From Pseudoalteromonas rubra (lineage in GTDB: Bacteria > Pseudomonadota > Gammaproteobacteria > Enterobacterales > Alteromonadaceae): DNA of 64,000 nt. The stretch spans positions 1,210,501 through 1,274,500 of the forward strand of contig NZ_CP045429.1 of the NCBI RefSeq assembly GCF_005886805.2. Direction: 5' to 3'. Under the pieces are notes generated by a model. It had not been told where the DNA came from. It searched no databases and was given only the letters and a program-made list of their open reading frames with translations. Positions 8,161 through 44,151 of the stretch are shown here, piece by piece; the first letter of the stretch is position 1; each line of letters begins with the position of its first letter. A program made the translations under genes and the position numbers.

Positions 8161-8166
8161 GCGAGA

Positions 8167-8195: not shown

Positions 8196-8349
8196 CATCA
8201 GTGCAGTATGTGTATTGCTCTTCTTGCAGATGGCACGTTTATCCGCATGGAAAATTACCAGTTATCGGCTGAGTATCTCATTCTACCCGAAACGTATTGC
8301 AGTGGTTACTTGCCTATTTTCACACCAACGACTTCGCAGTGGGTAAATT

Positions 8350-8570
8350 ATACCCATTTCACTTAATACCTGCTCCATTTGAAGGAGCAAATAAGACGCT
8401 AATGGCGTTAAAAATTTCTCACTTAGAACCTTCACCTAAGGTATAGGTTCGTACATGTTTGCCTCGCCTACTTGGACGTAGGTGTCTCAGCGATAGCAGG
8501 ACGCGGGAGCGGTGTTATCGACCCTATTTTCTCGCCTCAAAACAGAACACTTAATTAAGTAAATTGGTAT
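8350..8570. repeat. MITE-like non-coding element with imperfect terminal inverted repeats
   Basis: The left end (ATACCCATTTCACTTAAT, 8350-8367) and the reverse complement of the right end (ATACCAATTTACTTAAT, 8554-8570) differ by one substitution and one gap. The 221-bp interior has no open frame and contains short hairpins (for example CCTAC-TTGGA-CGTAGG near 8470). The structure fits a miniature inverted-repeat element. I recognise this type of sequence as a dispersed intergenic repeat of Pseudoalteromonas-like genomes, but copy number was not counted. A near-identical copy of the right end occurs at 40259-40278. Confidence 0.6.
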
Positions 8571-8848
8571 TAGCAAACTCACCGACCAGAGTGAAAGCAC
8601 ACTCGATGCTTTAAAACATACCTCATTAATCTTTGTAAATGAGCTGGTGACTTTAAAGAATTTAAAGTGCTATATTTTTTACATCTCAGGGAATGGATAG
8701 CGCTTTTCTGAGCGCCAGCTTGAATATCATTATTGCTAAACTTGGCTTTTTTTGTTTTATTTATGTTTATTAAGTTAATTTTGTGGTGTTTTGTTTCTAT
8801 TTTTGATAATGCAAGGTTTGTCCAGTTGTGTATCCTAGCTCTATTTTA

Positions 8849-8876
8849 TTGACATTTGTTTTTCTCATGATACTTT
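8849..8876 (+). promoter_or_regulatory. Candidate promoter of the biosynthetic island
   Basis: A perfect -35 box TTGACA (8849-8854) is followed after 16 bases by TACTTT (8871-8876), a weak -10; GATACT at 8869 is an alternative with shorter spacing. Transcription would start near 8883, about 30 bases before the first gene of the island. The -10 is uncertain. Confidence 0.4.
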
Positions 8877-8913
8877 TTTTGCGTTAAGTGAATGTAGTGT
8901 AGATGGACTTGTA

Positions 8914-12747: not shown

Positions 12748-12749
12748 TC

Positions 12750-25200: not shown

Positions 25201-26484
25201 ATGTTAGACAAGTACCAACAAAATGGAAGCAAAGTACTCTTATACTTAGATACCCGGGAGCTCCCTCTGGAGAGAAAACAGGAGATAGCTGCGGCAAAAC
25301 AACAGGGTTACAAGATACTCATGGCGACCCCAACCCCGCGCGCTTACGATGCGTATTGTCTTGACTACGTGCTGGACGTAAATGTCGGTAATTTTGCTGA
25401 AGCTGAGCCGGTGATTCTCGACTATATCGCGACACATAAACTCAATGTGACCGGTATTTTGGTCTGGAAAGATCGCGAAGTCGTACTGGCATCCAAACTA
25501 GGACAGGCACTGGGATTACCCCATACCACACCTGAGCATGCTGAAAATGTTCGTGATAAAAGTAAAACACGTGCCTTACTGGAGAAGTTTCCGGGTCTGA
25601 ATCCTCGCTTTTCAGTGGTAAGAGATGAAGCTTCTTTCATGAGCGGATTAGCTGAAGTAGGCGTTCCCGCAGTATTAAAACAAGCTGGTAATTCAGGTAG
25701 TCGTGGTATGTGTGTGATCACTGACCTGGAAACGGCTCTGGATAAGTACCGCGAAGTGGTTGCTGTTAACAAACAGCAGGCCGGTGATATGTATCATTAC
25801 TACGAAGATATCATGCTACTGGAGCAACGCCTGACAGGCAGTGAACACTCTCTAGCTGGGGTTGTGGCCGATGGCGAGGTGATCACATTTACCATTGCTG
25901 ATAAGAAGTTTGATACAAGTCTGCCTTTGCAGTATGAAAATGTAGTACCCTCTAAGTTAGCAGTTGATCTACAAACAGAAATTGTAGCACAACTGAAACA
26001 AGCTGTAGCTGAAACAGGTATAAATTGGTGCGGCTTCCATGTCGATTTTATGATCACCGAAGCAGGCCTGAAGATCCTGGAAATTGGCGGTCGTCTGGGT
26101 GGTGAGATGATTAACTCTCATCTTATCCCACTGACCCTGCCTGGTGTCAGCAGTTACGCTGCACTGATTGAGGTTGTGCAGGGTAATAACCCGCTTGCAC
26201 ATACGGATTACACCCAGCTTGCTCACTCCCGTGCTGCATCTCGTGTTGTGATGCCAACAGCGAAAGGCGTGATAAGTAAGATCGAAGGGGTACAAAATGT
26301 GATCAAAGATCCCCGTTGCCGCGAGTTTATGCAAACCTGGGGTGTGGGGGATGAAATGGTCTATCCGGACGTCAAATTCAAAGGGTATGAAATCGGCTAC
26401 TTTATCGCTCAGGTTGGCCTGGATGACGATATTGAACAGGCTATCGAAGCACTGAATAACAAAATAACAATCACAATTGAATAG
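25201..26484 (+). CDS. ATP-grasp carboxylate-amine ligase
   Basis: A 427-residue ATP-grasp enzyme. The preATP-grasp part (residues 10-115) is followed by the ATP-binding subdomain (PAVLKQAGNSGSRGMCVI near 155-175) and the catalytic half with ILEIGGRLGGEMINSHLIP near 290-308, where the acidic residue and Arg typical of Mg-ATP and acyl-phosphate binding are seen. These enzymes join a carboxylate to an amine through an acyl phosphate, as in PurK, carnosine synthase or BacD. It has a good ribosome site (AAGGAA). It lies between the two NRPS genes, which suggests it builds an amide in a precursor or tailors the peptide. The substrate cannot be read from sequence. Confidence 0.88.
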   Translation: MLDKYQQNGSKVLLYLDTRELPLERKQEIAAAKQQGYKILMATPTPRAYDAYCLDYVLDVNVGNFAEAEPVILDYIATHKLNVTGILVWKDREVVLASKLGQALGLPHTTPEHAENVRDKSKTRALLEKFPGLNPRFSVVRDEASFMSGLAEVGVPAVLKQAGNSGSRGMCVITDLETALDKYREVVAVNKQQAGDMYHYYEDIMLLEQRLTGSEHSLAGVVADGEVITFTIADKKFDTSLPLQYENVVPSKLAVDLQTEIVAQLKQAVAETGINWCGFHVDFMITEAGLKILEIGGRLGGEMINSHLIPLTLPGVSSYAALIEVVQGNNPLAHTDYTQLAHSRAASRVVMPTAKGVISKIEGVQNVIKDPRCREFMQTWGVGDEMVYPDVKFKGYEIGYFIAQVGLDDDIEQAIEALNNKITITIE

Positions 26485-26523: not shown

Positions 26524-27384
26524 ATGAAAAAAACAACTCTTTTAAGACAAATGCTAAATGACCAAAACATCCACATTGCACCGGGTGTCTTTGATGGAAT
26601 GAGTGCACGACTGGCAGAGCAGACAGGCTTTGATGTCATTTATGCCAGTGGTGGTGCGATTGCCCGAAGCTGTGGTTTCCCGGACATTGGTATCATCAGC
26701 TTTACTGAAGTCATGAATCGCGTTGGTCAGATGGCGGAAGTTACGAAAGTCCCTGTGATTGCGGATGCGGACACAGGGTTTGGTAATGCAATTAATGTTA
26801 GCCGAACAATCAAAGCGTTCGAGCGTGCTGGCATTGCTGGTGTGCACCTGGAAGATCAGACGTTCCCGAAACGTTGTGGTCACCTTGATGATAAATCACT
26901 GATCAGTGCAAAAGAAATGGCACACAAAATTCGTGTAGCTAAAGACAGCCAAACTGATGAAGACTTTGTGTTGATCGCGCGCACCGATGCCATCGCCGTT
27001 GAAGGGTTTGATGCGGCTATTGAGCGCTCACAAATGTATATGGAAGCGGGTGCTGATGTGATCTTCGTTGAAGCGCCTGAAACTATCGAGCAGATTGAGC
27101 TGATCGCTAAACATATTCCACAACCTAAACTTATCAACATGTTCCACAGTGGTAAAACCCCTCTGGTACCAAAAGAGCGCTTACAAGAGCTAGGCTACAA
27201 GTTTGTTATCATTCCATCCGACTTGCAGCGTGCCACGATTCAGGCTTGTCAGAATACTCTGAGCACCATTTTAAAATATGGCGACAGTGGCAGTATTGCT
27301 GACAGCATGGCGTCATTTTCTGACCGAGAGCAAATCATCCGTACTAAGGATTACCTGGCCATCGACGACGGTTATGAAAAATAA
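26524..27384 (+). CDS. Isocitrate lyase/PEP mutase superfamily C-C lyase
   Basis: A 286-residue TIM-barrel enzyme of the ICL/PEPM superfamily, of PrpB-like length. The Mg-binding DADTGFGN motif is near residues 81-88. The catalytic loop reads FPKRCGH, with Cys at about residue 118; this KRCGH signature marks lyases such as methylisocitrate lyase, 2,3-dimethylmalate lyase and isocitrate lyase, and is absent from true PEP mutases. The gene is on its own ribosome site between the ATP-grasp ligase and the second NRPS. In this setting it probably cleaves, or forms in reverse, a 2-hydroxy-dicarboxylate used as a precursor; the housekeeping role of PrpB is less likely because no prpC or prpD is nearby. 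Confidence 0.88.
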   Translation: MKKTTLLRQMLNDQNIHIAPGVFDGMSARLAEQTGFDVIYASGGAIARSCGFPDIGIISFTEVMNRVGQMAEVTKVPVIADADTGFGNAINVSRTIKAFERAGIAGVHLEDQTFPKRCGHLDDKSLISAKEMAHKIRVAKDSQTDEDFVLIARTDAIAVEGFDAAIERSQMYMEAGADVIFVEAPETIEQIELIAKHIPQPKLINMFHSGKTPLVPKERLQELGYKFVIIPSDLQRATIQACQNTLSTILKYGDSGSIADSMASFSDREQIIRTKDYLAIDDGYEK

Positions 27385-27435: not shown

Positions 27436-27541
27436 ACTTCTCCCAATACGTTAATGAAAAAAATCATGGGCCTGCTTGGCTTCGGCCTCATGCGGCCAAA
27501 ATTTAATGATTTATCAGCTCTGTGGGAAAGTGGAGTTAAAT

Positions 27542-30500
27542 GTGAAAAAAAGAACAATAAAGGAATTGTTGCAGCGAGTATGGCAGGCAGGTTGTCAGCT
27601 GACGCTCAAATCGCAACAGCTAGCTCTAAGTGGAAATACCAAGAATATCGACCGTGCACTGTTACAGGAAATCAAAGATCACAAAAGCGATATTATCAGT
27701 TACCTGAGTAACACGAGTGACAACCTGGTACTGACGGAACAACGACCAGCTCAGTTACCACCGACTGCTAGTCAGTCTTCACTGTGGATGGCGCACAAGC
27801 TGGCTGAACTGGGTAACGCCTATTCAATGCCGTTGGTTAAAACATTCGATAGCTTGCTGGATATTCAGCGGGTTGAGCAGGCTTTTCATGCCTTGCAGAT
27901 TCGTCATGAAGCGTTACGTACGAATCTTGAAGACACAGACGGCGATGTATACCAGGTGATCCATCAGACGGCGAGAGCCTCTGTAGTGCATCTGACGCAG
28001 GAAGCAGATTTATCTGCACAGGTACAAAGATTATTGGCGGTGCCTTTTTCGTTGCAACAGGAACCGTTGATCCGGCTGTATTGCATACGGGGTGAAGCGC
28101 AGACGACCCTAGTGTTTAATATGCACCATGTCATCAGTGATGGTGTGTCTTTGGGTATTCTTAGCCAGGAATTCGCAAAATTATATCATGGCGAGGCCTT
28201 GTTACCGCTGACCTACCATTATGCGGATTATGCTGTTGCACAGGCAGCCTGGTTGGACTCGCCTAAGTTGCATGCTGCGGTCAGTGCCCTATGCGGGCCT
28301 CTACAAGATCTGCCTGATTACACTAACCTACCGATAAAAACGGCGCGCACCGCTGAGCGTTCAACACTCGGGGAAACCTATTCGTTTGCCATTGAGGCGG
28401 CGCATACCAAGCTGGCTGGTGAGGTGGCTAACCGCGCGCAAGTAACCCGGTTTACAGTCATGATGGCAGCCTTTTTCGTGATGCTGAATAAGGTCAGTAG
28501 CCAGGACTCTCTGTGTATCGGTGTGCCATTTTCAAATCGTCAGGCAAACCACACCGACGACATGCTGGGGTTATTTGCCAACACGCTGCCAATTGCCGCT
28601 CATATTTCTGGCCAGCTGGGCTTTAGTGAGTTTGTTGAGCAGTTGCAGACGCAAATTCTGGATACCTATGAATGGCAGGGTGTACCACTTGATCTCATGC
28701 TTAATGAGCTGAAACTCAAACGCAGTGCGACTTATGCACCGCTGTTTCAGGTGATGTTTGCTTACCAGAATATCGCGGCGGATCCTTTAGTGCTGGACGG
28801 TGTTAGCAGCAAAGACATTGAGTTTGATGTTAGCCATATCAAGTACGATTTGAAGTTGACAATAATTGAAGAGGGCGACGAGTTGCGCGCTGTGTTTGAA
28901 TACAGTAGTGCATTGTTTGAACGCGACACCATAGTGCAGCTAGGTCATAACTACCTGCAAGTGTTGTCTAACCTTGCATCGGCCGCTCCGTTGTCTCAAT
29001 GGTCGCTGTTAAGCGAAGCTGATCAGAGTCAACTATTGGAACACACGAGCAATCGCTCGAATGACACGCCTGTTAGCCCCTTGTGCTTACATCAGCTTTA
29101 TGAGCAGCAGGTCAAGGCACAACCAGACTTTACAGTATTGAAGTGTGGTAGTGAGACTTTGAGTTACGCGGCGCTTGATAGCAGAGTAAATCAGCTTGCC
29201 AATGGGCTGATCGCACTGCCCGGTTACCAGGCTGGCAAGCTCATCGGTGTGTGCACCGATCGCAGTTTTGACATGGTTGCGGCCATCCTGGCTGTACTCA
29301 AAGCCGGCTGTGCTTACGTGCCTTTAGACCCGGAATATCCGTCTGACCGCATCGCTTATATTTGTAAAGACGCAGCGTTGGAGTTGGTGCTGACTCAGCC
29401 AGAATTGAGTGCACAGTTTGAGGCCATGGGAGTTACGCCGCTGAATGTCAGTGATACTCATGGCGAACACTGGTATCAGGCTTATAGCAGTACAGAGCCT
29501 GATACAGCGGCTCAGGTAACAGCAGATCAACTTGCCTATATCATCTATACCTCTGGTTCAACGGGTAATCCGAAAGGGGTGATGGTTGAGCATGGTAATG
29601 CAGTGGCAATGCTTGAATGGGCAAAGCGTACGTACTCAGAGCAGGAGCTGGCTAAGGTATTGGCTAGCACGTCGTTATGTTTTGACTTGTCTATTTATGA
29701 GTTGTTCTTGCCGCTGTGTTTCGGTTCTCAATGTGTGATCGTCGATAACCTAATTGCGTTGTTGGCGGAGCCGGTCGAAGTAACGCTGATTAACTCAGTA
29801 CCTACCGCCATTGAGCTGATCCTGGAACAGGACGGATTACCGTCCGAAACATTGGTAGTGAACTCCGCTGGTGAACCTTTGTCAGCCACGTTGGTGAATA
29901 AATTACTATCGGCTGGGGTGACTAAAGTGTGTAACCTCTATGGGCCTTCTGAAGACACCACTTACTCAACGTATGCAGAGTTTACATCACCGCTGAGCGC
30001 TGCGCCCAGTATTGGCCGGGTCATAGACAATACTCAGGGTTACGTATTGTCAGAACACAACCAGCTGCTGCCTTTTGGGGCGGTAGGAGAGTTGCATTTG
30101 ACTGGTAAAGGGCTGGCCCGTGGCTACCTGAATCAGCCACAGCTAACAGACGACAAGTTTATTACGAACCCTTTCTATCACCCTGAATGTGCCTCGACCA
30201 GTGATCGTATGTACAAGACCGGTGACTTAGTACGCTATTTGCCCAGTGGTGAGCTGGAGTATATTGGCCGTGCTGATGAGCAGGTAAAACTGCGCGGCTA
30301 CCGGATAGAACTCAATGAGATTAAAGCGCAGGTTGAATCTCAGCAGGCGGTTGAGTCAGCACTGGTGGTGGTACGTCAAAGTGGCACTCAAAAACAGCTG
30401 GTGGCATATCTAAAACCAGCTTGTGAGGATTTTACCCCTTACTTGGCACCGCTTAAGGCAGCACTTGAATCCCAGTTACCTGGTTATATGGTGCCGGATG

Positions 30501-32122
30501 CTTTTGTGGTACTCGAGAACTGGCCGCTATTACCAAATGGTAAAATTAATAAACGCGCCTTACCCGAGCCGGAGCTTACTAACCTGACTGACAATTATGT
30601 GGCGCCACAGACGCAACTGCAGACTGAATTGGTGGCCTTGTGGTCGGCGCTACTGAGTCTGCCTGAGAGTGAAATTGGTATCCGTCACAACTTTTTTGAG
30701 CTCGGAGGTAACTCCATTTTGGTGGCCAAAATGTTGTCTTCTATCGCCAAGCAATATCAGGTTTCTATATCGTTTACCGATGTGTTTAATAACGCAGCGA
30801 TTGTTGAGCTGGCTCGCTATATTGAACAGGGTGAATTGTCTGATCTGCCGCAGCTATGCAATACAGATCCTGTTGATTCATTACCTGCATCACCGCAACA
30901 GATCCGTTATTTCGAAACCTATAACATAGATGCCCCAACGTCTAAGCGGATGACGAATACCTTTGACTACTGGGAAGACATTGAGATTTTGCAGCAGGCG
31001 GTTCAGGTTCTGGTTGAGCAAAACGATATTTTCCACACGGGTTACGACTTTGATGAGCAAGGCAAGTTGCGCATTTCATTCAATCCTAACCCGGTGGTAG
31101 AGCCCATTTTCTTTACACAAGAAGTGGAAAGCGACCATGAATTGCAAAAAGCCATGTATGGACGCATTGCTCAGGAAACATTTGAGCTGGCTCACCCACC
31201 GCTACTCAAACTATTGATCTGCAAGTCGCCTAACGGTGGTGGTCATGCGGTGATAGGGATCTTTAATGGGATCCTGGATGCCTACTCGGGCGGTCTGGTG
31301 ACGACTGAAGTTCGACGACTTTATAACCTGATTGCTGAAGGGAAAACCTGTGCAGCGCCGGATGTTGCCTATCGGGACTTTGTGCAGTGGCAATATGCCC
31401 TGACGGACAGTGAAAAATACACTGAAGCCCGCACATTCTGGCGCACTCAATATCCTGACGGGTTCACGCCTTTTTATCTGACCGATCACCCTCAGGGTAG
31501 TCAGGGCGGCACCATGTTCGCGTTTTTACTGGGCGAAACTTTGTCAGAGCAGGCTGCAGCAAAAGCAAAGCAAACGGAATCAAGCTTGTTTAACTTTTTG
31601 CTTGCTAACTTCGTGGAAGTGGCAAGCGGCTGGTATAAGCGCGATGACGTGTCTGTAGGTCTGTTATATCACGGCCGCGATCAGGCCGAACTGGAAGATA
31701 AAATTGGTTACTTTGTTGACTTGTTATGTCTCAAAGCAGAGTACCAGGCAGGCCAGCCATTTGCGCAGTTGGTAGAGCAGGTTAATAAAAACCTCTTTGA
31801 AAGCATAGATAATCGCATTTATCAGTACCAGGATTTGGCTGCTGATTTTGGTCAGTCACTGACGGAGCCACGTTTTCCATTGACGGGATTTCACGTCAAC
31901 AATGTCATCGTACCTGGCGAGGAGAAGCAAGTCCCGGCGCACTTCGAACAGCAAACAGCGCCGCTGCCCTATGAACCTAAGTTTGACTTCAACATTTATG
32001 TTCATGAATCAAACCGCGGCATTTTAATCCGCATGGCGTACGCAAACCGCATCTTAACCGCAGAAGAGGCAGAGCAGTTTGTTACCACCTTCAAAAATAC
32101 CGTTAATAAAAATAGTCAATAA
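27542..32122 (+). CDS. Single-module NRPS with docking domain and degenerate C-terminal condensation domain
   Basis: A 1526-residue NRPS. GTG 27542 is preferred over the upstream ATG 27476 because GGAG sits 6 bases before it and the product then begins directly with a TubC-type N-terminal docking helix (VKKRTIKELLQRVWQAG). Order: docking domain (1-55), condensation domain (HHVISDG at 195-201), adenylation domain (A3 core near 667, Asp235 equivalent at 715; code reads DLYNNALTYK, almost that of the last module of the first NRPS), carrier (GGNS, Ser about 1058), then a second condensation-like domain of about 430 residues in which the active-site motif is replaced by FNGILDA (1241-1247). No thioesterase follows. 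The docking domain suggests it accepts the chain from the first NRPS. Confidence 0.95.
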   Translation: MKKRTIKELLQRVWQAGCQLTLKSQQLALSGNTKNIDRALLQEIKDHKSDIISYLSNTSDNLVLTEQRPAQLPPTASQSSLWMAHKLAELGNAYSMPLVKTFDSLLDIQRVEQAFHALQIRHEALRTNLEDTDGDVYQVIHQTARASVVHLTQEADLSAQVQRLLAVPFSLQQEPLIRLYCIRGEAQTTLVFNMHHVISDGVSLGILSQEFAKLYHGEALLPLTYHYADYAVAQAAWLDSPKLHAAVSALCGPLQDLPDYTNLPIKTARTAERSTLGETYSFAIEAAHTKLAGEVANRAQVTRFTVMMAAFFVMLNKVSSQDSLCIGVPFSNRQANHTDDMLGLFANTLPIAAHISGQLGFSEFVEQLQTQILDTYEWQGVPLDLMLNELKLKRSATYAPLFQVMFAYQNIAADPLVLDGVSSKDIEFDVSHIKYDLKLTIIEEGDELRAVFEYSSALFERDTIVQLGHNYLQVLSNLASAAPLSQWSLLSEADQSQLLEHTSNRSNDTPVSPLCLHQLYEQQVKAQPDFTVLKCGSETLSYAALDSRVNQLANGLIALPGYQAGKLIGVCTDRSFDMVAAILAVLKAGCAYVPLDPEYPSDRIAYICKDAALELVLTQPELSAQFEAMGVTPLNVSDTHGEHWYQAYSSTEPDTAAQVTADQLAYIIYTSGSTGNPKGVMVEHGNAVAMLEWAKRTYSEQELAKVLASTSLCFDLSIYELFLPLCFGSQCVIVDNLIALLAEPVEVTLINSVPTAIELILEQDGLPSETLVVNSAGEPLSATLVNKLLSAGVTKVCNLYGPSEDTTYSTYAEFTSPLSAAPSIGRVIDNTQGYVLSEHNQLLPFGAVGELHLTGKGLARGYLNQPQLTDDKFITNPFYHPECASTSDRMYKTGDLVRYLPSGELEYIGRADEQVKLRGYRIELNEIKAQVESQQAVESALVVVRQSGTQKQLVAYLKPACEDFTPYLAPLKAALESQLPGYMVPDAFVVLENWPLLPNGKINKRALPEPELTNLTDNYVAPQTQLQTELVALWSALLSLPESEIGIRHNFFELGGNSILVAKMLSSIAKQYQVSISFTDVFNNAAIVELARYIEQGELSDLPQLCNTDPVDSLPASPQQIRYFETYNIDAPTSKRMTNTFDYWEDIEILQQAVQVLVEQNDIFHTGYDFDEQGKLRISFNPNPVVEPIFFTQEVESDHELQKAMYGRIAQETFELAHPPLLKLLICKSPNGGGHAVIGIFNGILDAYSGGLVTTEVRRLYNLIAEGKTCAAPDVAYRDFVQWQYALTDSEKYTEARTFWRTQYPDGFTPFYLTDHPQGSQGGTMFAFLLGETLSEQAAAKAKQTESSLFNFLLANFVEVASGWYKRDDVSVGLLYHGRDQAELEDKIGYFVDLLCLKAEYQAGQPFAQLVEQVNKNLFESIDNRIYQYQDLAADFGQSLTEPRFPLTGFHVNNVIVPGEEKQVPAHFEQQTAPLPYEPKFDFNIYVHESNRGILIRMAYANRILTAEEAEQFVTTFKNTVNKNSQ

Positions 32123-32133
32123 GGAAGTCTTAC

Positions 32134-33396
32134 GTGAATAATAATAAGGTATATGATCTCATCGGGATTGGCGGCGGCGTGTTTAACCTGTCGCTTGCAG
32201 TTATGTTAGAAGAGCAGGGCTTTGAAAACGCCATTTTCTTCGAGCGCAATGAAACCATCCATTGGCATCCTGGGTTACTGCTGGATACCTCAGAGCTTCA
32301 GGTTAACTTTATGAAGGACCTGATCCTGCCGGTGTCGCCCACCAGCAAATACACTTTCATTAACTATCTGCACCACAGGAACTTGTTGTATCAATTCTTG
32401 AACCGTAAAACGGATACGATCTCCAGAAACCAGTTCCAGGCGTATTTTCGTTGGGTGGCTGACATGTTGCCGTCACTGAGAATGAATAGCACCGTTGAGC
32501 AGATCCGTCATGATGGTGAGCTATTCATTGTGACGGTGAATGGAGAGGATTACTTCGCCAAGGATATTTCGATTGCGGCGGGGATTAAGTCAAATGTCCC
32601 TGAATGTGCTAAAGATGTTATCTCTGATGATGTTTTTCATGTCACAGAGTTTGCCAGACGTCGAGATGCACTGGCGGGACAAAGAGTATCCGTGATCGGT
32701 AGTGGTCAGAGTAGTGCTGAAGTTTTTGCAGATGTTTTCTCGCAAAATCATTGTAAATCCATTCACTGGCTGGGAAGACGTTATTCCTTTGCTCAGCTTG
32801 AAGATAACTGCTTTGTGAACGAGTTTTATTCGCCAAGTTTTATCAAGGTGTTTAAGGGACTGACTACAGATAAGAAGAAAGACTTCATTCAGCGTATGGA
32901 AATGTCCAGTGATGGTATCAATCAAGGCCTGCTGGACAACATCTATCGCAGTATCTTTGACAGAAAGTTCTTTACGGAGCACGACTGTGATTATGCGATC
33001 CGTCCTTATCATGAGCTTCAGGCCATTGAAAAGTCAGGTAGTGCTTATGTATTGACCTTCAAGAACCTACTTCAGGGTGACACCTATACGCTCGAATCTG
33101 ACAAAGTGATATTGGCAACCGGATTTAAGTCTGCGTCCTGGGATCTGTTGCAGTCTTTGGTGAGTGATGAATATCAAAGCGTGGACGAACTAAAAATTTC
33201 CGACGACTATGAGTTGCACTGGCAGCACATGGGGAAAAATCGAATTTACGTGCAAAACACCAGTAAAATGCAACTTGGACTGGGTGATCCGAACCTTAGT
33301 ATCTCAGCTTATAGAGCTGCGATGATAGCGAATTCTATCTTGAAAAAACCGGTATTCCAGACCCAACCTGATACGCCGTTGCTAGGCTACATGTAG
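32134..33396 (+). CDS. Amine N-monooxygenase (lysine/ornithine N-hydroxylase family)
   Basis: A 420-residue flavoprotein of the SidA/PvdA/IucD family, which hydroxylates the side-chain amine of ornithine, lysine or a related diamine using NADPH and O2. The FAD-binding GIGGGVFNLS motif is at residues 10-20, the NADPH-binding GSGQSSAEV near 190-198, and the ATGF motif near 330. The substrate-loop motif MKDLILPVSPTSKYTFINYLH matches the family. The start is GTG at 32134 with AAGGAA upstream, 11 bases after the NRPS stop codon. Followed by MetRS-like, cupin and DAO genes, it fits the lysine N6-hydroxylase of hydrazinoacetate pathways (the role of Spb38/Tri26). A hydroxamate siderophore role is possible but lacks the usual acyl or formyl transferase. 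Confidence 0.92.
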   Translation: MNNNKVYDLIGIGGGVFNLSLAVMLEEQGFENAIFFERNETIHWHPGLLLDTSELQVNFMKDLILPVSPTSKYTFINYLHHRNLLYQFLNRKTDTISRNQFQAYFRWVADMLPSLRMNSTVEQIRHDGELFIVTVNGEDYFAKDISIAAGIKSNVPECAKDVISDDVFHVTEFARRRDALAGQRVSVIGSGQSSAEVFADVFSQNHCKSIHWLGRRYSFAQLEDNCFVNEFYSPSFIKVFKGLTTDKKKDFIQRMEMSSDGINQGLLDNIYRSIFDRKFFTEHDCDYAIRPYHELQAIEKSGSAYVLTFKNLLQGDTYTLESDKVILATGFKSASWDLLQSLVSDEYQSVDELKISDDYELHWQHMGKNRIYVQNTSKMQLGLGDPNLSISAYRAAMIANSILKKPVFQTQPDTPLLGYM

Positions 33397-33406
33397 GAGC
33401 TGAGCG

Positions 33407-34960
33407 ATGAAAAAGAAACAGTACTTACTGATTTCAGCTAAGCCTGCGCCAAATGGTCAGCTGCATTTGGGGCATTTGTCAGGTCCTTATTTGTCACAGG
33501 ACATGTACTACCGCAAGTTGTGTGCAGACGGACACGATGTGAAGGTGATTTCAGGAACCGATGCGATTGACTCGTTTATTCAGTTGAAAGCTGTCCAGCA
33601 AGGTGTGCAGCCCGCACACCTGGCTGCGCAGCACTTTGCAACGATTGTTGACAGCTTCGCAGGCTTTTCAATCCATTATGATAACTTCATTAATCCTTTC
33701 TCCGAACAGTGGCAACCTCGTTATGTCGCCACGATGCAGGAGGTGGTGACGGTTGCCGAACGTGAAGGCAAAGTCATCACAAAGGAAGCTCCGTTCCCTG
33801 AGAATGAGGCGGGCGAGCCTGCATCGGGTGCCTGGATTGAGGGAATTTGCTGTGATTGTGATTCCCCCATGAGTGGCTACTTCTGTGAGCAATGCGGCGC
33901 GCATCTGGAACCAGGTGAAATCCTCGATGCTCGGCACAGAAACACTGCTCATACCTTGTGTTTTGAGCCGCAGAGTGACGTGTTTTTCCAGATAGCGGAC
34001 AGTGATGGCTTATTGCAATCGCTACAACAGGCTCAGGTTCGTGAACAGGAATATGCCATTGTCGAAAAACAGTTCCAGAATAACCGTACTCAGGTGCGGT
34101 TGACGGAACGTGCTGCTTGGGGTGTCTCGTGTGGCGATAATCAACAGGTATATTTCGGGCACGGTATGCTGTATGCCTACTGCCGTATGATAGGTGAATC
34201 TTATCAGGCGCTGACCGGGTGTCAGACTCATCCATTTGATGCAGAGTCTGAAGTGACCACCATCAACTTCTTCGGCATGGATAACACGGTATCACACATG
34301 GTTAATATTAATGCCATTGGTGCAGAGATCCCTCAGTGGAAAGGGTTTGACCACTTTGTGGTGAACCAGTTTTATCTGCTCAACGGCCGTAAGTTTTCCA
34401 CCAGTGCTGGCCATGTTGTGAACGGTAATGAAGTCATTAGTAATCCGATGATACAGGCCGAAGGCGTGCGTTTTGTACTGGCAGCTACCTCACCGGCAAA
34501 ACACACGATGGACTTTACTCAGGCGTCTTTGCTGCATTGGTATAACAATGTATTGATCAACGAGCTGATGCAGCCACTGGTGATGGCTGCGGAGCAATTG
34601 AGCGGTAAAACCTGGCCAGTATTACCAGCTGGACAAGACTTCGCGCCGGTGTGGGAAAAACTCACACATATCTATGAATATCACAACTTTGACCCGCAAG
34701 AGGTTGTAGCCATTGCGCGGGATTATATTGCTACTGGTGCGGGGATTAAGCGTGAGGATGCACTGGCACAGTATCTTGCTCAGTCGGCGTTACTGCTGTA
34801 TCCGCTGATCCCCGAAACGGCACGCACCCTATGGCAGGCCTGCGGCTTGTCGGGCGACCCAAGCCTTGCCGGGTTGGCCTGTGACAGTGCGGCTTTTAAC
34901 GCATTTCCTTGTCCGTTCGAACGGATCTCTATGCATATGATTGATGGATTATTTAGGTAA
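33407..34960 (+). CDS. Methionyl-tRNA synthetase-like N-N bond-forming ligase subunit (hydrazine synthetase type)
   Basis: A 517-residue class I aminoacyl-tRNA-synthetase-like protein. It keeps the HIGH-type motif (QLHLGHLSGPYL, residues 19-30), paired zinc-binding Cys motifs (CCDCDSPMSGYFCEQCG, about 149-165) and a KMSKS-like KFSTS loop (about 331-335), and is MetRS-related. It is shorter than cellular MetRS, and its gene lies inside a biosynthetic operon. In the s56-p1 and triacsin pathways a cupin-MetRS fusion (Spb40, Tri28) joins N6-hydroxylysine to glycine through an activated glycine to form an N-N bond. Here the gene immediately follows the N-hydroxylase and is followed by a separate cupin. 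A good AGGAG lies 7 bases before the ATG. The cellular MetRS role is therefore unlikely; substrate choice is inferred. Confidence 0.9.
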   Translation: MKKKQYLLISAKPAPNGQLHLGHLSGPYLSQDMYYRKLCADGHDVKVISGTDAIDSFIQLKAVQQGVQPAHLAAQHFATIVDSFAGFSIHYDNFINPFSEQWQPRYVATMQEVVTVAEREGKVITKEAPFPENEAGEPASGAWIEGICCDCDSPMSGYFCEQCGAHLEPGEILDARHRNTAHTLCFEPQSDVFFQIADSDGLLQSLQQAQVREQEYAIVEKQFQNNRTQVRLTERAAWGVSCGDNQQVYFGHGMLYAYCRMIGESYQALTGCQTHPFDAESEVTTINFFGMDNTVSHMVNINAIGAEIPQWKGFDHFVVNQFYLLNGRKFSTSAGHVVNGNEVISNPMIQAEGVRFVLAATSPAKHTMDFTQASLLHWYNNVLINELMQPLVMAAEQLSGKTWPVLPAGQDFAPVWEKLTHIYEYHNFDPQEVVAIARDYIATGAGIKREDALAQYLAQSALLLYPLIPETARTLWQACGLSGDPSLAGLACDSAAFNAFPCPFERISMHMIDGLFR

Positions 34961-34967
34961 CAGCACT

Positions 34968-35303
34968 ATGTTGAACAAATTTACATTACTTCCGCCCACT
35001 TCAAGCCGTCCGGGCGTTGAACTTAAGATGGTGGATTTTGACCAGTTTGGTGAGCAGCGTATTCCGTTTGAAGGCGGGCAGTTTTTTGTCGAGCCTGGTA
35101 AAACCTCTAAGCCGGATACGCATGATGTTTCTGAATGTTGGTTTATTGCACAGGGTCAGGGGATCATCAATTACGATGGTCAGGAGTATCACATTACGCA
35201 GGGAGATTACTTGTATTTTGAGCCGCGCAAAACCCATTTTGTCCATAATGATGGTGAGCAGCAGCTGGTGATTTTCACTGTGTGGTGGATGGCACAGTCA
35301 TGA
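34968..35303 (+). CDS. Small cupin, probable partner of the MetRS-like protein
   Basis: A 111-residue single-domain cupin. The start at ATG 34968 is chosen because AGG at 34955-34957 precedes it; an overlapping start at 34944 (or TTG 34941) is possible. The metal-binding motifs are THDVSE followed by GQG (motif 1) and KTHFVH (motif 2), with the expected His, Glu and His ligands and the beta-strand spacing of the family. In the actinomycete hydrazine-forming enzymes this domain is fused to the MetRS-like domain and catalyses the N-N bond-forming step; here the two are separate genes, seven bases apart, and the next gene overlaps by ATGA. The catalytic role is inferred from context and motifs. 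Confidence 0.87.
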   Translation: MLNKFTLLPPTSSRPGVELKMVDFDQFGEQRIPFEGGQFFVEPGKTSKPDTHDVSECWFIAQGQGIINYDGQEYHITQGDYLYFEPRKTHFVHNDGEQQLVIFTVWWMAQS

Positions 35304-36325
35304 TGCAAGCATATGATATTGCTGTGATAGGCGCGGGTGTCATGGGCACCAATGTCGCCTATCAGGCAGCACGAGAACATCCTGATAAACGCATTGCCCT
35401 AATTGACAGAGATAAAATTGGAGCTGGCTGTAGTGGTTATGCAGGGGCGATTATTTCACCTATTTCATTGACTGCAGCTCATCAACAGCAAACCGCTTTG
35501 TCGAGGGATTGGTATGAAGATCCGGCATTGGGTTGTCAGCACTTGTTACGTCAGCTAGATACACTGATTGTATATAGTGATGCATCGCAGGAGACACTGA
35601 ATCAAAAAACCGATCTGCTGACGCCGGTGCAGTGTGAGGTACCAGGGTGGTTGTCGCCCCCGTCTGATCTCCAGCTGTCGCAAAGTCGTGCCACGTTATG
35701 GGGCAATGTGTTTGAGATCTGTCAACATCTGGCGTACGCAAACGATAGTGTCGATGTCTATGAATGTCTGGCTGTTCGAGATTTCAAGCGCTCTGACGAC
35801 GGTTGGCAGTTATCTATGAGTGACGGCAGGACGTTGCATGCAGGCCAGGTCGTGGTTGCCAAAGGTGCCTGGCTTAGCGCAGAGGAACAGTCTTGCGACT
35901 TGATTATAAACCGCAAGAAAGTCGTTGCCTATGAAATTGATGCACCTGTTGATGAAACCAGTCCACTGGTCTATCTCTATGATCAGGGGGCATTTTTATT
36001 GCCCTTACTGCATAAGCAACGCTGGATCATGAGTATTACCTCTCAGCAGTGGGGTTGCATGCCTGAGCGTCATGAATGCGAAATCTCACAGGAAGACCGT
36101 CAGATTGCAGAAACCATTTTGCAACAGCATGCTCCCAGCCTGATTGGCGCTTTACGTGGCGGACGGTGCCACAGCGACGGTTATGTTCGTGAGCGTCGTC
36201 CTCAGGTAGTGGCCAGTCAACCGGGTCAGCTGGTTATCGGAGGTGGCTCGGGGAGTGGCTTTCGTTTTGCCCCAGCGGTAGGGCGGCAGGCTTGTGAACT
36301 GCTATTTTCGAATTCAACAGTTTAA
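35300..36325 (+). CDS. DAO-family FAD oxidoreductase (glycine oxidase-like)
   Basis: A 341-residue flavoprotein of the D-amino acid oxidase/glycine oxidase family. The FAD dinucleotide motif (IAVIGAGVMGTNVAYQAA) is at the N-terminus and the C-terminal GGGSGSGFRFAPAVG motif is the typical ThiO/DAO flavin loop. The ATG at 35300 overlaps the cupin stop codon as ATGA, so the genes are translationally coupled; the earlier GTG at 35282 is less likely. In s56-p1 and triacsin assembly the corresponding enzyme (Spb39, Tri27) oxidises the N-N-linked lysine-glycine adduct to release hydrazinoacetic acid. That role is inferred; sarcosine or other N-alkyl amino acid oxidation is the alternative. Confidence 0.88.
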   Translation: MMQAYDIAVIGAGVMGTNVAYQAAREHPDKRIALIDRDKIGAGCSGYAGAIISPISLTAAHQQQTALSRDWYEDPALGCQHLLRQLDTLIVYSDASQETLNQKTDLLTPVQCEVPGWLSPPSDLQLSQSRATLWGNVFEICQHLAYANDSVDVYECLAVRDFKRSDDGWQLSMSDGRTLHAGQVVVAKGAWLSAEEQSCDLIINRKKVVAYEIDAPVDETSPLVYLYDQGAFLLPLLHKQRWIMSITSQQWGCMPERHECEISQEDRQIAETILQQHAPSLIGALRGGRCHSDGYVRERRPQVVASQPGQLVIGGGSGSGFRFAPAVGRQACELLFSNSTV

Positions 36326-36337
36326 AGAAGAATAATA

Positions 36338-37519
36338 ATGATAAATCAAACTCAAGAAAAACCGCTTAGTGGGATCACGGTGATCGATCTTACCCGGGTG
36401 TTGGCCGGTCCTTTTTGTACCATGATGCTGGCCGACCAGGGGGCACGTGTTATCAAAGTTGAGCTCAGCGGCAGTGGTGATGATGCTCGCCTGTATGGTC
36501 CCAATGTGAACGAGATGTCTGGCTATTTTGCTTCCATTAACAGGGGCAAGGAAAGCATAGCGTTGAACCTAAAAGATGAAGAAGATCGGAAGGTCTTTGA
36601 AGCCTTACTGGCCAAAGCGGATGTACTAACCGAAAACTTCAGGCCGGGCGTAATGGAGCGGCTTGGTTATGACTGGCCGACTTTACACAGTAAATTCCCT
36701 CGCCTTATTTACGGTGCGATATCAGGGTTTGGTCAGCATGGCAGCCCTCACCGTGATAAGCCAGCGTATGATATGGTGGTGCAGGGCATGGGTGGCATTA
36801 TGACGGTGACGGGACACAAAAATACCCCTCCGACCCGTGTGGGTGTCAGTATTGGGGATCTCAGCTCGGGCTTGTATCTGACCATTGGTGTTCTGATGTC
36901 ACTGAACATGCGTCATCGCACTCAGGTTGGCAACCAAATTGATATCGCGATGCTGGATTGTCAGCTGGCATTACTGGAATACTCTATTATGCGCCATCAC
37001 GCAACGGGAGAAATTCCCAGTCCTGTAGGTACTTATCGTCCAGCAATTGCCCCACCATTTGGCATGTTTGCTGCGCGCGGTGGTTACATGGTCATTGCTA
37101 CGGGTAACGAAACCTTGTTTGGTAAATTATGTGATGTGCTGGGTCACAGTGAACTGAAAACAGATCCGCGCTTTAATGGCCCTGAGGCACGTAAAGATAA
37201 CGAAGAGGAATTACAGCAGCTGTTGGAAGACATCTTGTCTCAGGCAACACCCCAAGTCTGGGTCGAGCGGCTGAGTGCACATGGGGTACCGTGTGGACCA
37301 GTTAATAATGTTGCACAAATGCTGAGTGATCCACATGTGCAGTTGCGCAATATGCTGGTGACTACAGAGGGCGGATTTGGGCCTGAGCAGATAGTGGGTA
37401 CGCCGCTGAAGTTTTCCAATGTGGCAGACATGACCAGCGTACGTTGTGCTCCGACACTGGATCAGGACAGAGACACTATCCTCCGAGACTTTGGTATTGT
37501 TGAGGAGGCACTAGGGTGA
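36338..37519 (+). CDS. Class III (CaiB/Frc family) CoA-transferase
   Basis: A 393-residue CoA-transferase. Family motifs include the N-terminal LTRVLAGPFCTMMLAD, GANVIKVE-like GARVIKVE, INRGKESIALNL, and LTENFRPGVMERLG, and the middle YDMVVQGMGG with GDLSSGLYLTIG; the catalytic Asp of this family lies in the latter region. These enzymes move CoA between carboxylic acids such as oxalate, carnitine or dicarboxylates. Placed between two DAO-type enzymes, it may activate an acid precursor for assembly or recycle a CoA ester made by the lyase upstream. The exact acid is unknown. The next gene overlaps by GTGA. Confidence 0.9.
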   Translation: MINQTQEKPLSGITVIDLTRVLAGPFCTMMLADQGARVIKVELSGSGDDARLYGPNVNEMSGYFASINRGKESIALNLKDEEDRKVFEALLAKADVLTENFRPGVMERLGYDWPTLHSKFPRLIYGAISGFGQHGSPHRDKPAYDMVVQGMGGIMTVTGHKNTPPTRVGVSIGDLSSGLYLTIGVLMSLNMRHRTQVGNQIDIAMLDCQLALLEYSIMRHHATGEIPSPVGTYRPAIAPPFGMFAARGGYMVIATGNETLFGKLCDVLGHSELKTDPRFNGPEARKDNEEELQQLLEDILSQATPQVWVERLSAHGVPCGPVNNVAQMLSDPHVQLRNMLVTTEGGFGPEQIVGTPLKFSNVADMTSVRCAPTLDQDRDTILRDFGIVEEALG

Positions 37520-38808
37520 AACCCGTGAACACTCAACCTCTATGGCTTGAGGAAGCGGTTACGCTCGAGACGCAAGCGCCATTGGCTAAGGCCGATGCCG
37601 TTTTCGTCGGTGGCGGTATCACGGCATTGAGTGCCGCGATACCTTTGCTCAAAGCGGGATTTACGGTACAAGTTCTGGAGGCAAATGCACCACTCTCAGG
37701 GGCCAGTAGCCGGGCCTTTGGTAACCTTGATGTGGGTGTATCTGTGTCTAACAGTGCTTTACGCGCGCAGTATGGTACTCAGTTGGGTGACGAATTGTGG
37801 CTCGAAGCGGCAAATGCAGCAATAGAATTGCAGGCATATATCGCTCGGTGCCAGATCGCGTGTGATCTGGATACCAGCGGTCATTTGAAAGTTGCCTTCA
37901 ATTCGCGCCAGGAAGCGGGGCTGGTGAACGAGTACCATGAGCTTAACGCAGTTTTTCCTCACTCGCAGGCAAAGTTAGTGCGTGGTCAGGAAGTGAGCCA
38001 CTATTGGCCGGGCCGTAAAGCAACTTTGGGGTTTTTTAATCCGCTGAGTGCGACCGTCAATCCCTACAAGTTTGCCAGCGCGCTGTATGCACAGTTTTTA
38101 GCGCTCGGTGGTCATTATAGCGCCTATTGTGCTGTCAAACAGGTGAGACCAGACAAAGGTGAAGGCTATACTGTGGTGCATCAAGCAGGACATACACAAG
38201 CGGAGCATGTCGTGCATACCACCAATGGTTATACTTCTAAAGTTTCGGGTGCGCTAAGGCAACACATATTGCCCATTGGTAGCTACATTATGGCCACCAA
38301 CCCTTTAAGCGAGCAGGAGTATAAAGCGTTTACCCATCCCCATCAGGTCGTAACCACAGCCTATCATTTCAAACAATATATGCGACTGGATCAGCAGCGC
38401 CGTTTGATTTTTGGCGGACGCCTGGGGCTGTCCACTGGATTACAGGAACACAAAGTTGAACGGGAATTACGCAATCTCGCGACTCATTTGTTACCGTTTG
38501 TGGACATCCAAAGTAGCCATGTGTGGGGCGGGAAGCTAGCCATGACCCGAACTATGTTACCTTCTATGGGAGCGCTGGCACACAATCAATACTATGCCAT
38601 GGGGTACTGTGGTCGCGGGATACCTATGGCCTGGTGGTGCGGTATTAAGCTTGCCGAAATGATCGTTCAGGGGTCCACGCGCAACATTACCAGCTTTACA
38701 CGTGCACCCAATCAGTCTTTTCGGTTACTCAATCTTATCCCGTTAAGAAATGAGCTATTGTCTGGCTATTTTTACCTAAAAGACCGTGCATACCGGGAGT
38801 TTCAGTAA
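37516..38808 (+). CDS. Second DAO-family FAD oxidoreductase (PuuB-like)
   Basis: A 430-residue flavoprotein similar in layout to gamma-glutamylputrescine oxidase and other amine oxidases of the DAO fold. The start is GTG at 37516, overlapping the stop codon of the CoA-transferase by four bases. The FAD motif AVFVGGGITALSAAIPLL and an ELEAN/ASSRAFGNL segment are in the first 70 residues; the C-terminal RTMLPSMGA and GYCGRGIPMAWWCG segments are typical of the family's flavin site. The role in the island is unclear: it may oxidise an amine or a hydrazine intermediate, or an amino acid of the product. Confidence 0.85.
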   Translation: MKPVNTQPLWLEEAVTLETQAPLAKADAVFVGGGITALSAAIPLLKAGFTVQVLEANAPLSGASSRAFGNLDVGVSVSNSALRAQYGTQLGDELWLEAANAAIELQAYIARCQIACDLDTSGHLKVAFNSRQEAGLVNEYHELNAVFPHSQAKLVRGQEVSHYWPGRKATLGFFNPLSATVNPYKFASALYAQFLALGGHYSAYCAVKQVRPDKGEGYTVVHQAGHTQAEHVVHTTNGYTSKVSGALRQHILPIGSYIMATNPLSEQEYKAFTHPHQVVTTAYHFKQYMRLDQQRRLIFGGRLGLSTGLQEHKVERELRNLATHLLPFVDIQSSHVWGGKLAMTRTMLPSMGALAHNQYYAMGYCGRGIPMAWWCGIKLAEMIVQGSTRNITSFTRAPNQSFRLLNLIPLRNELLSGYFYLKDRAYREFQ

Positions 38809-38887: not shown

Positions 38888-40201
38888 ATGTCACAAGAAA
38901 AAAGTTGGCTCTCTAACGGCCTTGTTGTGTTTATTTCCTCTGGCGTTATTGCTGTCAAAGCATTGCTGGACAGCTTTTTACTGGAATCCGTTGATCAGGT
39001 TTTCCTGCAGGCGTTTGCATTGGTGTTTCCGGTGATTATCTTGTCCAATATCGCATCTGTGTCTATTTCAAACGCGGTAATAGGTACAGCGTCCAGCTGG
39101 ATAGACAAGGAGCGCGTCTCAGGTTCTGTGATAGTGCTGAGCATATCAGCCGCCGCTTTGCTGGGGCTAAGCGTATCCGCAGGGCTCTATGTGTTGCAAA
39201 GTAGTTTGATTGAATGGTTTGGCGCACAACAATTAGGTACTGCAATCGGTAGTTTTCTCGACCACCTGGCACTGTGGTTGCCTCTTCAGTTTTGCTCCGC
39301 CGTATTGTTACAGATTGCCCGATACCTTGGCCTGTTCAAATCATCAGGTTTATTGCAGGTTAGTTCAGGTGCCGTGGGTATGCTGACGAGTGTGGTGTTG
39401 CTTATGTGGTTGCCGCTGTTGCCCCCTTTGGTGAGTGTGGTGGTTTCCAATGCCATTATCGCTTTTTGTTCTGTATGTACGTTGCTGTACATGATGAAGT
39501 CGCGAATCCACTGGCAAGCCTGTGAGCGAGAACCTGCCCAACGTGGGGTGGTTGGCAAAGCACTGAGTATCTGTAGTACGACTTTCCTGGGGCAGAGCGC
39601 TGCGGTGGTGTTTATTTTCTTTATTACCAAATCAGTATCAGAGCAGGGAGAGGCTATGGTTGCTGTGTTTGCCTATCTGACCAGATTAGAGCAACTTATT
39701 TTGATGCTCGCGGTGGCATTTATGAATGTCATGCTGCCAGAAGTGGCCAAGTTGATTAAAGATGAACAGGCTGATTTACAAAACTACTTGAAAAAAGCAC
39801 AGCGATTTTTATTGATAAATGGCGTTATTGTTGCGTGTCTTCTGACCGGGTTGTTAGTGATGAAAATTAACCTGGAATATTCAATGTCAGAGCAAGCCTG
39901 GACACTGAGCTTGGTGTCAGTTATCTGGCTGAGCGGCACAGTGCTGCAGGGCATCACGGTATTCTACTCTCAGTTACTGAATGTTTTACTGTCGCCTAAA
40001 GTTGCCGTTGTGCTTAACTTGTTCCGCTTTACTTTGCTTGGTATGCCTTTGGTGTATGCTGGTAGTGTGTGGGCGGATGCAATTGGTATAGCAACGGGCT
40101 TGCTGATGATGCACACCATATCTCTGCTTATTTATCAGCACAAAGTCAATCAGCATATCGTGGCGAATAATGGCATTTCAAGAGCAGGCTTGAACACCTA
40201 A
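38888..40201 (+). CDS. MurJ/MATE-like multi-helix exporter
   Basis: A 437-residue polytopic membrane protein with about 12 predicted hydrophobic segments and no large loop, of the MOP superfamily (MurJ/MATE/Wzx fold). The middle segment (VAVFAYLTRLEQLILMLAVAFMNVMLPEVAK) resembles the MurJ signature around TM7-8. It is the last gene of the island, before a strong terminator. A second exporter beside the RND pump suggests a role in transport of the product or an intermediate across the inner membrane, with the RND system acting outward. The substrate is not known. Confidence 0.8.
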   Translation: MSQEKSWLSNGLVVFISSGVIAVKALLDSFLLESVDQVFLQAFALVFPVIILSNIASVSISNAVIGTASSWIDKERVSGSVIVLSISAAALLGLSVSAGLYVLQSSLIEWFGAQQLGTAIGSFLDHLALWLPLQFCSAVLLQIARYLGLFKSSGLLQVSSGAVGMLTSVVLLMWLPLLPPLVSVVVSNAIIAFCSVCTLLYMMKSRIHWQACEREPAQRGVVGKALSICSTTFLGQSAAVVFIFFITKSVSEQGEAMVAVFAYLTRLEQLILMLAVAFMNVMLPEVAKLIKDEQADLQNYLKKAQRFLLINGVIVACLLTGLLVMKINLEYSMSEQAWTLSLVSVIWLSGTVLQGITVFYSQLLNVLLSPKVAVVLNLFRFTLLGMPLVYAGSVWADAIGIATGLLMMHTISLLIYQHKVNQHIVANNGISRAGLNT

Positions 40202-44147: not shown

Positions 44148-44151
44148 GAAA

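Follow-up and report, generated by a model that had tools for sequence, protein, structure and literature searches.

What do four consecutive genes of Pseudoalteromonas rubra make, and from which amino acids, when they lie directly behind an NRPS gene and resemble enzymes that join two nitrogen atoms? Nature seldom forms N–N bonds, although drugs make good use of them, and the enzyme families known to build them are few. We analyzed these genes in a 64,000-nucleotide stretch of contig NZ_CP045429.1 (positions 1,210,501 to 1,274,500; hereafter the window). The preliminary description of this locus had recognized tightly coupled genes for an N-monooxygenase (NMO), a MetRS-like protein, a small cupin, and a DAO-type flavoenzyme, and all four are in place on the plus strand with their families matched; the HIGH-, KFSTS-, and zinc-type motifs attributed to the MetRS-like protein are also seen (Table 1). 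Intergenic gaps measure 10 bp and 7 bp, and the last two genes overlap at stop and start. Only 11 bp separate the NRPS 2 stop codon from the cassette, which ends 12 bp before the start of the next gene. Because they are adjacent, co-oriented, and matched at the family level, and because matches to all four families recur together at 59 of 84 related loci (L010–L093), the four-gene set is beyond chance.

Table 1. Features of the P. rubra locus, in window coordinates
Feature	Coordinates	Strand	Match or remark
RND-type exporter pair	8914..12747	+	AcrB-like 8914-11985, HlyD-like 11986-12747
NRPS 1	12744..25088	+	T-C-A-T-C-A-T-C-A-T-C-A-T; leading T domain without A domain
ATP-grasp ligase, L-amino-acid-ligase-like	25201..26484	+	PF13535; L-amino acid ligase BL00235 (3vot), 67 bits
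Isocitrate-lyase-superfamily protein, methylisocitrate-lyase-like	26524..27384	+	KRCGH motif; TIGR02317, 310.6 bits, below cut-off of 354.4
NRPS 2	27476..32122	+	TubC docking-C-A-T-C; last C domain without HHxxxDG motif
N-monooxygenase (NMO)	32134..33396	+	PF13434, 317 bits
MetRS-like protein	33407..34960	+	PF09334, 156 bits
K12 codon, predicted amino-acid-pocket residue	33440..33442	+	
HIGH-type motif HLGH, residues 20-23	33464..33475	+	
CxxC...CxxC zinc-type knuckle, C148, C151, C160, C163	33848..33895	+	
KFSTS motif, residues 329-333	34391..34405	+	In place of KMSKS of cellular MetRS
Stand-alone cupin	34968..35303	+	PF07883, 58 bits; likely ATG 34968, alternative TTG 34941
DAO-type flavoenzyme	35300..36325	+	PF01266, 89 bits; ORF from 35282, likely ATG 35300 or 35303
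CaiB/BaiF (class III) CoA-transferase	36338..37519	+	PF02515, 399 bits
Second DAO-type flavoenzyme	37516..38808	+	PF01266, 154 bits
437-residue protein, possibly a transporter	38888..40201	+	Without Pfam or NCBIfam match

The two central proteins place the cassette among known N–N-forming systems. The nearest solved structure to the MetRS-like protein is the C-terminal domain of PyrN (9l8v; 24% identity in the structural alignment), and PyrN is a proven hydrazine synthetase of the fused type, which acts on glutamate in the pyrazomycin pathway. Among solved structures, the cupin is closest to 5UQP, which is RHS1, a proven N–N-forming cupin (PMC8664883). It retains the four metal ligands D59, H61, E65, and H99 (numbered from the TTG start), including the invariant Glu; the last three ligand letters (H, E, and H) are common to all 82 cupin rows tallied, and the protein is 53 to 55% identical to the cupins of Burkholderia loci. 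Given these nearest structures and the retained ligands, the four genes very likely constitute an N–N-forming cassette, in which the MetRS-like protein is predicted to be the ATP-dependent ligase half, and the cupin the zinc-binding, N–N-forming half, of a split hydrazine synthetase. Among NCBIfam models, NF008863 (methionine--tRNA ligase) scores highest with the MetRS-like protein (390.7 bits, below the cut-off of 551), and a second, ordinary MetRS is encoded elsewhere in the host genome. Checked against cellular MetRS, as the preliminary description had proposed, the protein stands apart: it harbors KFSTS rather than KMSKS, its pocket letters (AKA/DD/FGMAY/FDNSHNI) are not those for methionine (ALY/DG/YLDIG/IDIFHFW in the host's own MetRS), its nearest structure is PyrN, and it is placed away from cellular MetRS in the tree, on which grounds we rejected a cellular identity.

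A comparable arrangement is found in Rhodococcus jostii RHA1, where RHS1 and a MetRS-like partner are likewise separate proteins encoded beside an N-hydroxylase, and where RHS1 has the same D/H/E/H metal ligands. Between this pair and the proteins described here, however, identity is only 27% for the MetRS-like protein and 34% for the cupin, the pocket letters differ, and the RHA1 stretch, unlike our cassette, has no DAO-type match. Afn8/Afn9 is another split-form cupin/MetRS-like hydrazine synthetase, and the review-table entry for Col1–Col2 of Colwellia reportedly goes back to a phylogeny-guided study by Matsuda and colleagues. Passages of that review (PMC11705231) give Col1–Col2 as a split pair, which may belong to the same clade as our MetRS-like protein; the likeness to Afn8/Afn9 and Col1–Col2 is one of split form, the sequence figures covering the RHA1 pair only.

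Two partner genes in the same operon, encoding the CoA-transferase and the ATP-grasp ligase, had been missed by the earlier account. The former is 57 to 58% identical to the CoA-transferase of Burkholderia loci and the latter 45 to 46% identical to its counterparts at hydrazine loci of Burkholderia and Microcystis. In Burkholderia arboris, B. lata, and B. cenocepacia, four loci (L010, L011, L038, and L091) carry matches to the NMO, MetRS-like protein, cupin, DAO-type enzyme, CoA-transferase, ATP-grasp ligase, and second DAO-type enzyme, but their MetRS-like protein is 33% identical to ours, with M12/G300 in the pocket instead of K12/N300, and no NRPS match of at least 100 bits was found in the stretches compared. 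An eight-family conservation with Burkholderia was dropped: the second DAO-type gene is a weak partner because it is only 25 to 27% identical to DAO-type genes of the Burkholderia and Microcystis loci, and the isocitrate-lyase-like gene is not a conserved partner because its Burkholderia counterpart is closer to another host gene (46%) than to the gene in the window (36%). MetRS-like relatives include proteins of Shewanella, Streptomyces, and Saccharothrix. To sample linkage, we took the 14 of 21 MetRS-like relatives (at least 41% identity) on contigs of at least 11 kb and read co-location from an identical longest-contig size. Contigs of the same size carried CoA-transferase matches for seven of the 14 and ATP-grasp matches for eight; both partners were found for four, either for 11, and neither for three, with the counts that involve the CoA-transferase taken from the best 120 of 7828 CoA-transferase matches. 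These same-size contigs, together with the Burkholderia loci that carry both genes, indirectly suggest that this MetRS-like clade is linked to the CoA-transferase and ATP-grasp ligase. Searches of open-licence PMC papers yielded none recognized as describing a CoA-transferase/ATP-grasp hydrazine cassette.

The adenylation codes of the NRPS genes, read by eye with the GrsA mapping, are DAFLLGATM, DALWLGGTF, DALWLGGTF, DLFNNALTY, and DLYNNALTY; by general code rules rather than a database comparison, these would specify, in order, one hydrophobic residue, two Val, and two Ala. The RND-type exporter pair probably exports the product. Among the Pfam families assigned to the genes covered, there is none for the KtzT-like heme enzyme of the piperazate synthase pathway. 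The MetRS-like protein was detected in one of 60 relatives (E 1e-30) and one of 394 genomes of the order (E 1e-40), the host each time, and in two of 369 genomes of the class, once in the host and once at 29% identity. For the end of NRPS 2 and for the ATP-grasp ligase, the host was the single match among 108 genomes of the genus (E 1e-60). Flanking genes compared with plasmids gave matches of 60 to 80% identity only. The cluster thus looks species-limited, and GC content (41 to 52% in 2-kb steps, with no jump at the cassette) neither shows nor excludes recent transfer. That a working hydrazine cassette serves a separate small molecule, with the NRPS genes as mere neighbors, is doubtful: the Burkholderia loci, which combine cassette, CoA-transferase, and ATP-grasp ligase with no NRPS match of at least 100 bits, speak for such an arrangement, whereas the single co-oriented run from NRPS 2 into the cassette, and an ATP-grasp gene sitting between both NRPS genes, speak against it.

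The NMO is flavin-dependent and predicted to hydroxylate the side-chain nitrogen of L-lysine or L-ornithine. A putrescine enzyme and a desferrioxamine enzyme are among its top-scoring solved NMOs, but a diamine N-hydroxylase is disfavored, since the amino-acid enzymes PvdA and MbtG have identical letters at K61 and N229, where 6xbb, 7us3, and 5o8p differ. Scores reach 291 bits against NMOs of hydrazine loci and at most 183.6 bits against any solved NMO, and the best NCBIfam model is histamine N-monooxygenase (226.6 bits of the 700 needed). An SDGI motif is shared with the NMOs of the Nocardia ninae, S. noursei, Glycomyces/S. fragilis, and RHA1 loci and with those of Pseudomonas loci (L027 and L030–L032) that, if we assume orthology, may correspond to the por cluster. 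The por hydroxylamines are of the ornithine/DABA type in passages of the review PMC11705231; because SDGI also occurs at these possible por loci, we dropped it as a lysine marker and keep lysine or ornithine as the substrate. Trees of 43 of the 83 NMO and 37 of the 72 DAO-type proteins found, all from hydrazine-type loci, place both enzymes on long branches, with at most 36% identity to any locus protein for the NMO and at most 32% to counterparts at other hydrazine loci for the DAO-type enzyme, so that the substrates of both are guesses. The DAO-type enzyme is predicted to cleave a C–N bond of an internal hydrazine, releasing a terminal hydrazine; by analogy with Apy10, as described in the same review (PMC11705231), the cleaved bond could instead lie at the opposite side of the hydrazine.

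The gene set had been matched to the known cassettes of the s56-p1 and triacsin pathways, with hydrazinoacetate as the proposed product. These (Spb38–40 and Tri26–28), like the azaserine, N-nitroglycine, and dob enzymes, are of the lysine-plus-glycine type. The match stands for the enzyme kinds, all four of which, DAO-type included, are shared, and fails for their arrangement, as the known systems have a fused cupin–MetRS protein, belong to another clade with another pocket, and are followed by other genes. Loci of Glycomyces harbinensis, S. fragilis, S. noursei, and Nocardia ninae (the last perhaps the dob or nin cluster) served as stand-ins for the Spb and Tri sequences. In a first tree of the MetRS-like rows, five near-duplicate or partial rows were dropped from 112, and a careful tree was built from 30 chosen rows; our protein falls into a separate, mostly split clade. 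The 30-row tree rejects its grouping with seven rows of the fused type (p-AU 1.6e-64), of which four come from organisms whose glycine/lysine pathways have been studied, with Spb40 and Tri28 themselves outside the test. The pocket signature of fused-type glycine/lysine rows (TPT/DQ/WPEYG/FDNYHLY, with small changes) is not found in our protein either, and on these two counts the hydrazinoacetate product is not borne out. K12, at the position corresponding to L13 of E. coli MetRS, is K in all 22 covering rows of its clade, whereas none of the remaining rows among the 112 has K there.

The exact s56-p1/triacsin chemistry, from lysine and glycine to hydrazinoacetic acid, is therefore unlikely, with the rejected clade, unshared signature, split form, and different downstream genes set against the four common enzyme kinds, an NMO of the amino-acid type, and the SDGI motif shared with locus NMOs of S. 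noursei and Nocardia ninae, organisms for which passages of PMC13061610 and PMC13274452 report lysine N-hydroxylation and a lysine–glycine conjugate or hydrazinoacetate. Pockets other than the fused-type signature may also take glycine, and more than one group of organisms uses this amino acid, since the review PMC11705231 reports it for Por11 of Pseudomonas orientalis. A glutamate-type enzyme yielding 2-hydrazinoglutarate is suggested by PyrN and RHS1, the solved structures to which the MetRS-like protein and the cupin come closest, but it is very improbable: our protein keeps H297 and D52, where both glutamate enzymes (PyrN and RHA1) carry R at the first position and V (PyrN) or A (RHA1) at the second, the PyrN letters being taken by eye from the structure-search alignment; among the 112 rows, R297 occurs in RHA1 only. 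Judged by its pocket letters, the putative amino-acid partner is neither of the fused-clade glycine type nor of the glutamate type. A MetRS-like/cupin pair is not known to have a siderophore role. Hardly probable at all is a hydroxamate or siderophore cassette in which the NMO-derived hydroxylamine is merely acylated and no N–N bond forms, a reading that fits the siderophore-type enzymes among solved relatives of the NMO, the NRPS and exporter genes, and the N-acyl hydroxylamine that a MetRS-like domain without a working cupin gives as a shunt product (passages of PMC8664883), but not a cupin that keeps all four ligands or an NMO that scores higher against hydrazine-locus NMOs than against solved ones.

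The four genes most probably encode a split-type cupin/MetRS-like hydrazine synthetase together with its N-hydroxylase and a releasing oxidase. By homology to characterized enzymes, the NMO would hydroxylate the side-chain amine of L-lysine or L-ornithine, the MetRS-like protein would activate a second amino acid with ATP, independently of tRNA, and transfer it to the hydroxylamine oxygen, and the zinc cupin would rearrange the unstable ester to an N–N-linked conjugate; by weaker homology, the DAO-type enzyme would oxidize a C–N bond and free a hydrazine acid. Gene linkage suggests that the CoA-transferase and ATP-grasp ligase probably activate or ligate this acid before or during NRPS use, and it is gene linkage, too, that would connect the hydrazine unit to the NRPS line. 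We tentatively propose, as one possible reading, a separate split-synthetase lineage that uses an amino acid new to the family (e.g., aspartate, giving hydrazinosuccinate, as K12 would suit an acidic side chain). A dedicated CoA-transferase and ATP-grasp ligase would activate the product, which might close to a cyclic hydrazide; the leading T domain could then take it up as a starter, or the terminal C domain could add it as a cap, in an NRPS peptide roughly five residues long. Nothing comparable to this route was met in the literature passages covered.

The enzyme family is a known one, and the branch described here looks different from those studied. If this reading is correct, the two separate enzymes of this locus would add a new pocket to the family, in which K12, D55, and N300 are testable residues for amino-acid choice; the CoA-transferase and ATP-grasp ligase would be a marker pair for finding further hydrazine pathways, including some of actinomycetes and Burkholderia; and the label "methionine--tRNA ligase" could conceal hydrazine synthetases.

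The window harbors four consecutive genes whose positions and strand are borne out as preliminarily described for an N–N-forming cassette, with probable starts of the cupin and first DAO-type genes shifted slightly relative to mechanical ORFs. NRPS 2 ends 11 bp before the cassette, and 12 bp beyond the cassette lies a class III CoA-transferase gene, followed by a second DAO-type gene. The top solved-structure match of the window cupin is 5UQP (RHS1), for which Zhao and colleagues (PMC8664883) show N–N bond formation in vitro and zinc ligands D63, H65, E69, and H103, of which the Glu is critical. At these positions D, H, E, and H are aligned in the window cupin, and the last three are common to all 82 cupin rows tallied. 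According to the same work, MetRS-like and cupin halves are able to act as separate proteins, and thus the split arrangement in the window is no obstacle (PMC8664883). The homologous enzyme set and the RHS1-type ligands uphold the proposed function, and these genes very probably constitute an N–N-forming cassette.

Features of the window and of three related loci (L036, L092, and L093) from other genomes
Feature	Position	Strand	Remarks
NRPS 1	12744–25088		first domain T without A domain
ATP-grasp	25201–26484
Isocitrate-lyase-superfamily protein	26524–27384		KRCGH motif; within NRPS operon
NRPS 2	27476–32122		last domain C without HHxxxDG motif
N-monooxygenase (NMO)	32134–33396	+	PF13434
MetRS-like	33407–34960	+	PF09334; 391 bits against NCBI 'methionine--tRNA ligase' model NF008863 (cut-off 551)
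Cupin	34968–35303	+	PF07883; probable ATG 34968
DAO-type enzyme	35300–36325	+	PF01266; probable ATG 35300 or 35303
CoA-transferase	36338–37519
Second DAO-type	37516–38808
437-aa protein	38888–40201		directly after operon; no Pfam or NCBIfam match
Hybrid histidine kinase-like protein (large; read from sequence), then response-regulator/GGDEF protein	40443–45054		just downstream of cluster
L036, Microcystis aeruginosa S464	11211–12566 and 6852–8957	− (first)	fused cupin-MetRS, TauD-type dioxygenase, ATP-grasp
L092, Robbsia andropogonis plasmid	5577–11832		split MetRS-like/cupin pair, NMO without amino-acid-enzyme K and N, aminotransferase genes; a possible diamine hydrazine pathway
L093, Pantoea ananatis plasmid (onion)	6368–14419		row of NMO, cupin, MetRS-like, FAD oxidoreductase, MFS, ATP-grasp, GNAT

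Among the top-scoring solved relatives of the window NMO are a putrescine enzyme and a desferrioxamine enzyme. Alignments place K61 and N229, which we take to be substrate-binding, with the same letters in the ornithine/lysine enzymes PvdA and MbtG, and with other letters in 6xbb, 7us3, and 5o8p; the substrate is predicted to be lysine or ornithine. An SDGI motif is shared with NMOs from the loci of Nocardia ninae, Streptomyces noursei, Glycomyces, S. fragilis, and RHA1 (Rhodococcus jostii). PMC13061610 and PMC13274452 name lysine as the substrate or precursor for DobG of N. ninae and NngK of S. noursei.

A tree of 107 MetRS-like rows resolves two large groups, divided by a branch with 100/100 support in a careful 30-row tree. 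The window lies in the 47-row group, in a clade of 20 rows whose nearest outsiders are the Burkholderia lata and B. cenocepacia loci (SH-aLRT 98 in the 107-row tree; 94/92, not starred, in the 30-row tree). The opposite group takes in the fused enzymes from Glycomyces harbinensis, S. fragilis, S. noursei, and N. ninae. Residues aligned with positions that we take to surround methionine in the pocket of E. coli MetRS differ between the groups, reading AKA, DD, FG(M/L/W)xY, FDNSHNI in the window clade; AMA, DD, FGLGA, FDNSHGI in Burkholderia; TPT, DQ, WPEYG, FDNYHLY, with small changes, in the fused glycine/lysine type; and SNT, AQ, YFEPR, FDNERLF in RHA1. Every one of the 22 window-clade rows covering the position has K12, which no row outside the clade shares. 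Since neither the glycine nor the glutamate signature is present at the pocket positions of the window protein, which also lies outside the fused glycine/lysine group, the earlier proposal of hydrazinoacetate loses its basis, and this product now appears unlikely. Among the database names of MetRS-like relatives, 'class I tRNA ligase family protein' occurs several times and 'methionyl-tRNA synthetase' once.

Close MetRS-like relatives are rare (21 at 41–53% identity among 7998 scored candidates) and include Shewanella (53%), Streptomyces, Spirillospora, Actinosynnema/Saccharothrix, and metagenomes. CoA-transferase and ATP-grasp searches return matches whose contigs equal theirs exactly in length: both partners on contigs of 91465 (Shewanella), 237362 (Streptomyces sp. 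NPDC052042), 600433 (Spirillospora), and 14170 nt, the CoA-transferase on one of 9360653 nt (Actinosynnema/Saccharothrix), and ATP-grasp on one of 7653710 nt (Streptomyces profundus), with further equal-length contigs also seen. For the 14 relatives on contigs of at least 11 kb, a contig of equal length appears among the CoA-transferase matches for seven (best 120 of 7828 matches) and among the ATP-grasp matches for eight; for 11 this holds with at least one partner and for three with neither, counting the CoA-transferase among the matches listed. CoA-transferase identity falls from at least 61% to 58% right after the equal-length-contig set.

Of the 84 related loci, six give a CoA-transferase match, a strong one only in four Burkholderia loci, the others being Microbispora loci within the window's own large group. 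ATP-grasp reaches at least 100 bits in seven of the 84, including Microcystis L036 (45% identity); a review (PMC11705231) lists the fused hydrazine synthetase of this locus. The Burkholderia loci combine the cassette with a CoA-transferase (57–58% identity to that of the window), cupin (53–55%), and ATP-grasp (45–46%); as queries, their CoA-transferase and ATP-grasp each give a single match in the host genome. L010, L011, L038, and L091 (B. arboris, B. lata, and B. cenocepacia) contain NMO, ATP-grasp, MetRS-like, CoA-transferase, cupin, and two DAO-type genes. No description of a Burkholderia hydrazine-type locus was recognized in the open-license PMC papers searched.

The cassette is embedded in a co-oriented block (8914–38808) of an RND exporter pair, NRPS 1, ATP-grasp, isocitrate-lyase-like protein, NRPS 2, cassette, CoA-transferase, and second DAO; of 108 genus genomes, only the host gave a match to each of two cluster markers. 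A-domain codes, read from motifs, suggest hydrophobic-Val-Val-Ala-Ala. The first T domain of NRPS 1 needs loading in trans, and the hydrazine unit could serve as starter there or as nucleophile at the last C domain of NRPS 2. Finally, the Colwellia pair Col1–Col2, included in the review (PMC11705231), could belong to the window clade, which would make the system less new. The window system is very probably a split hydrazine synthetase from a clade that is both distinct and rare, accompanied by accessory enzymes of its own.
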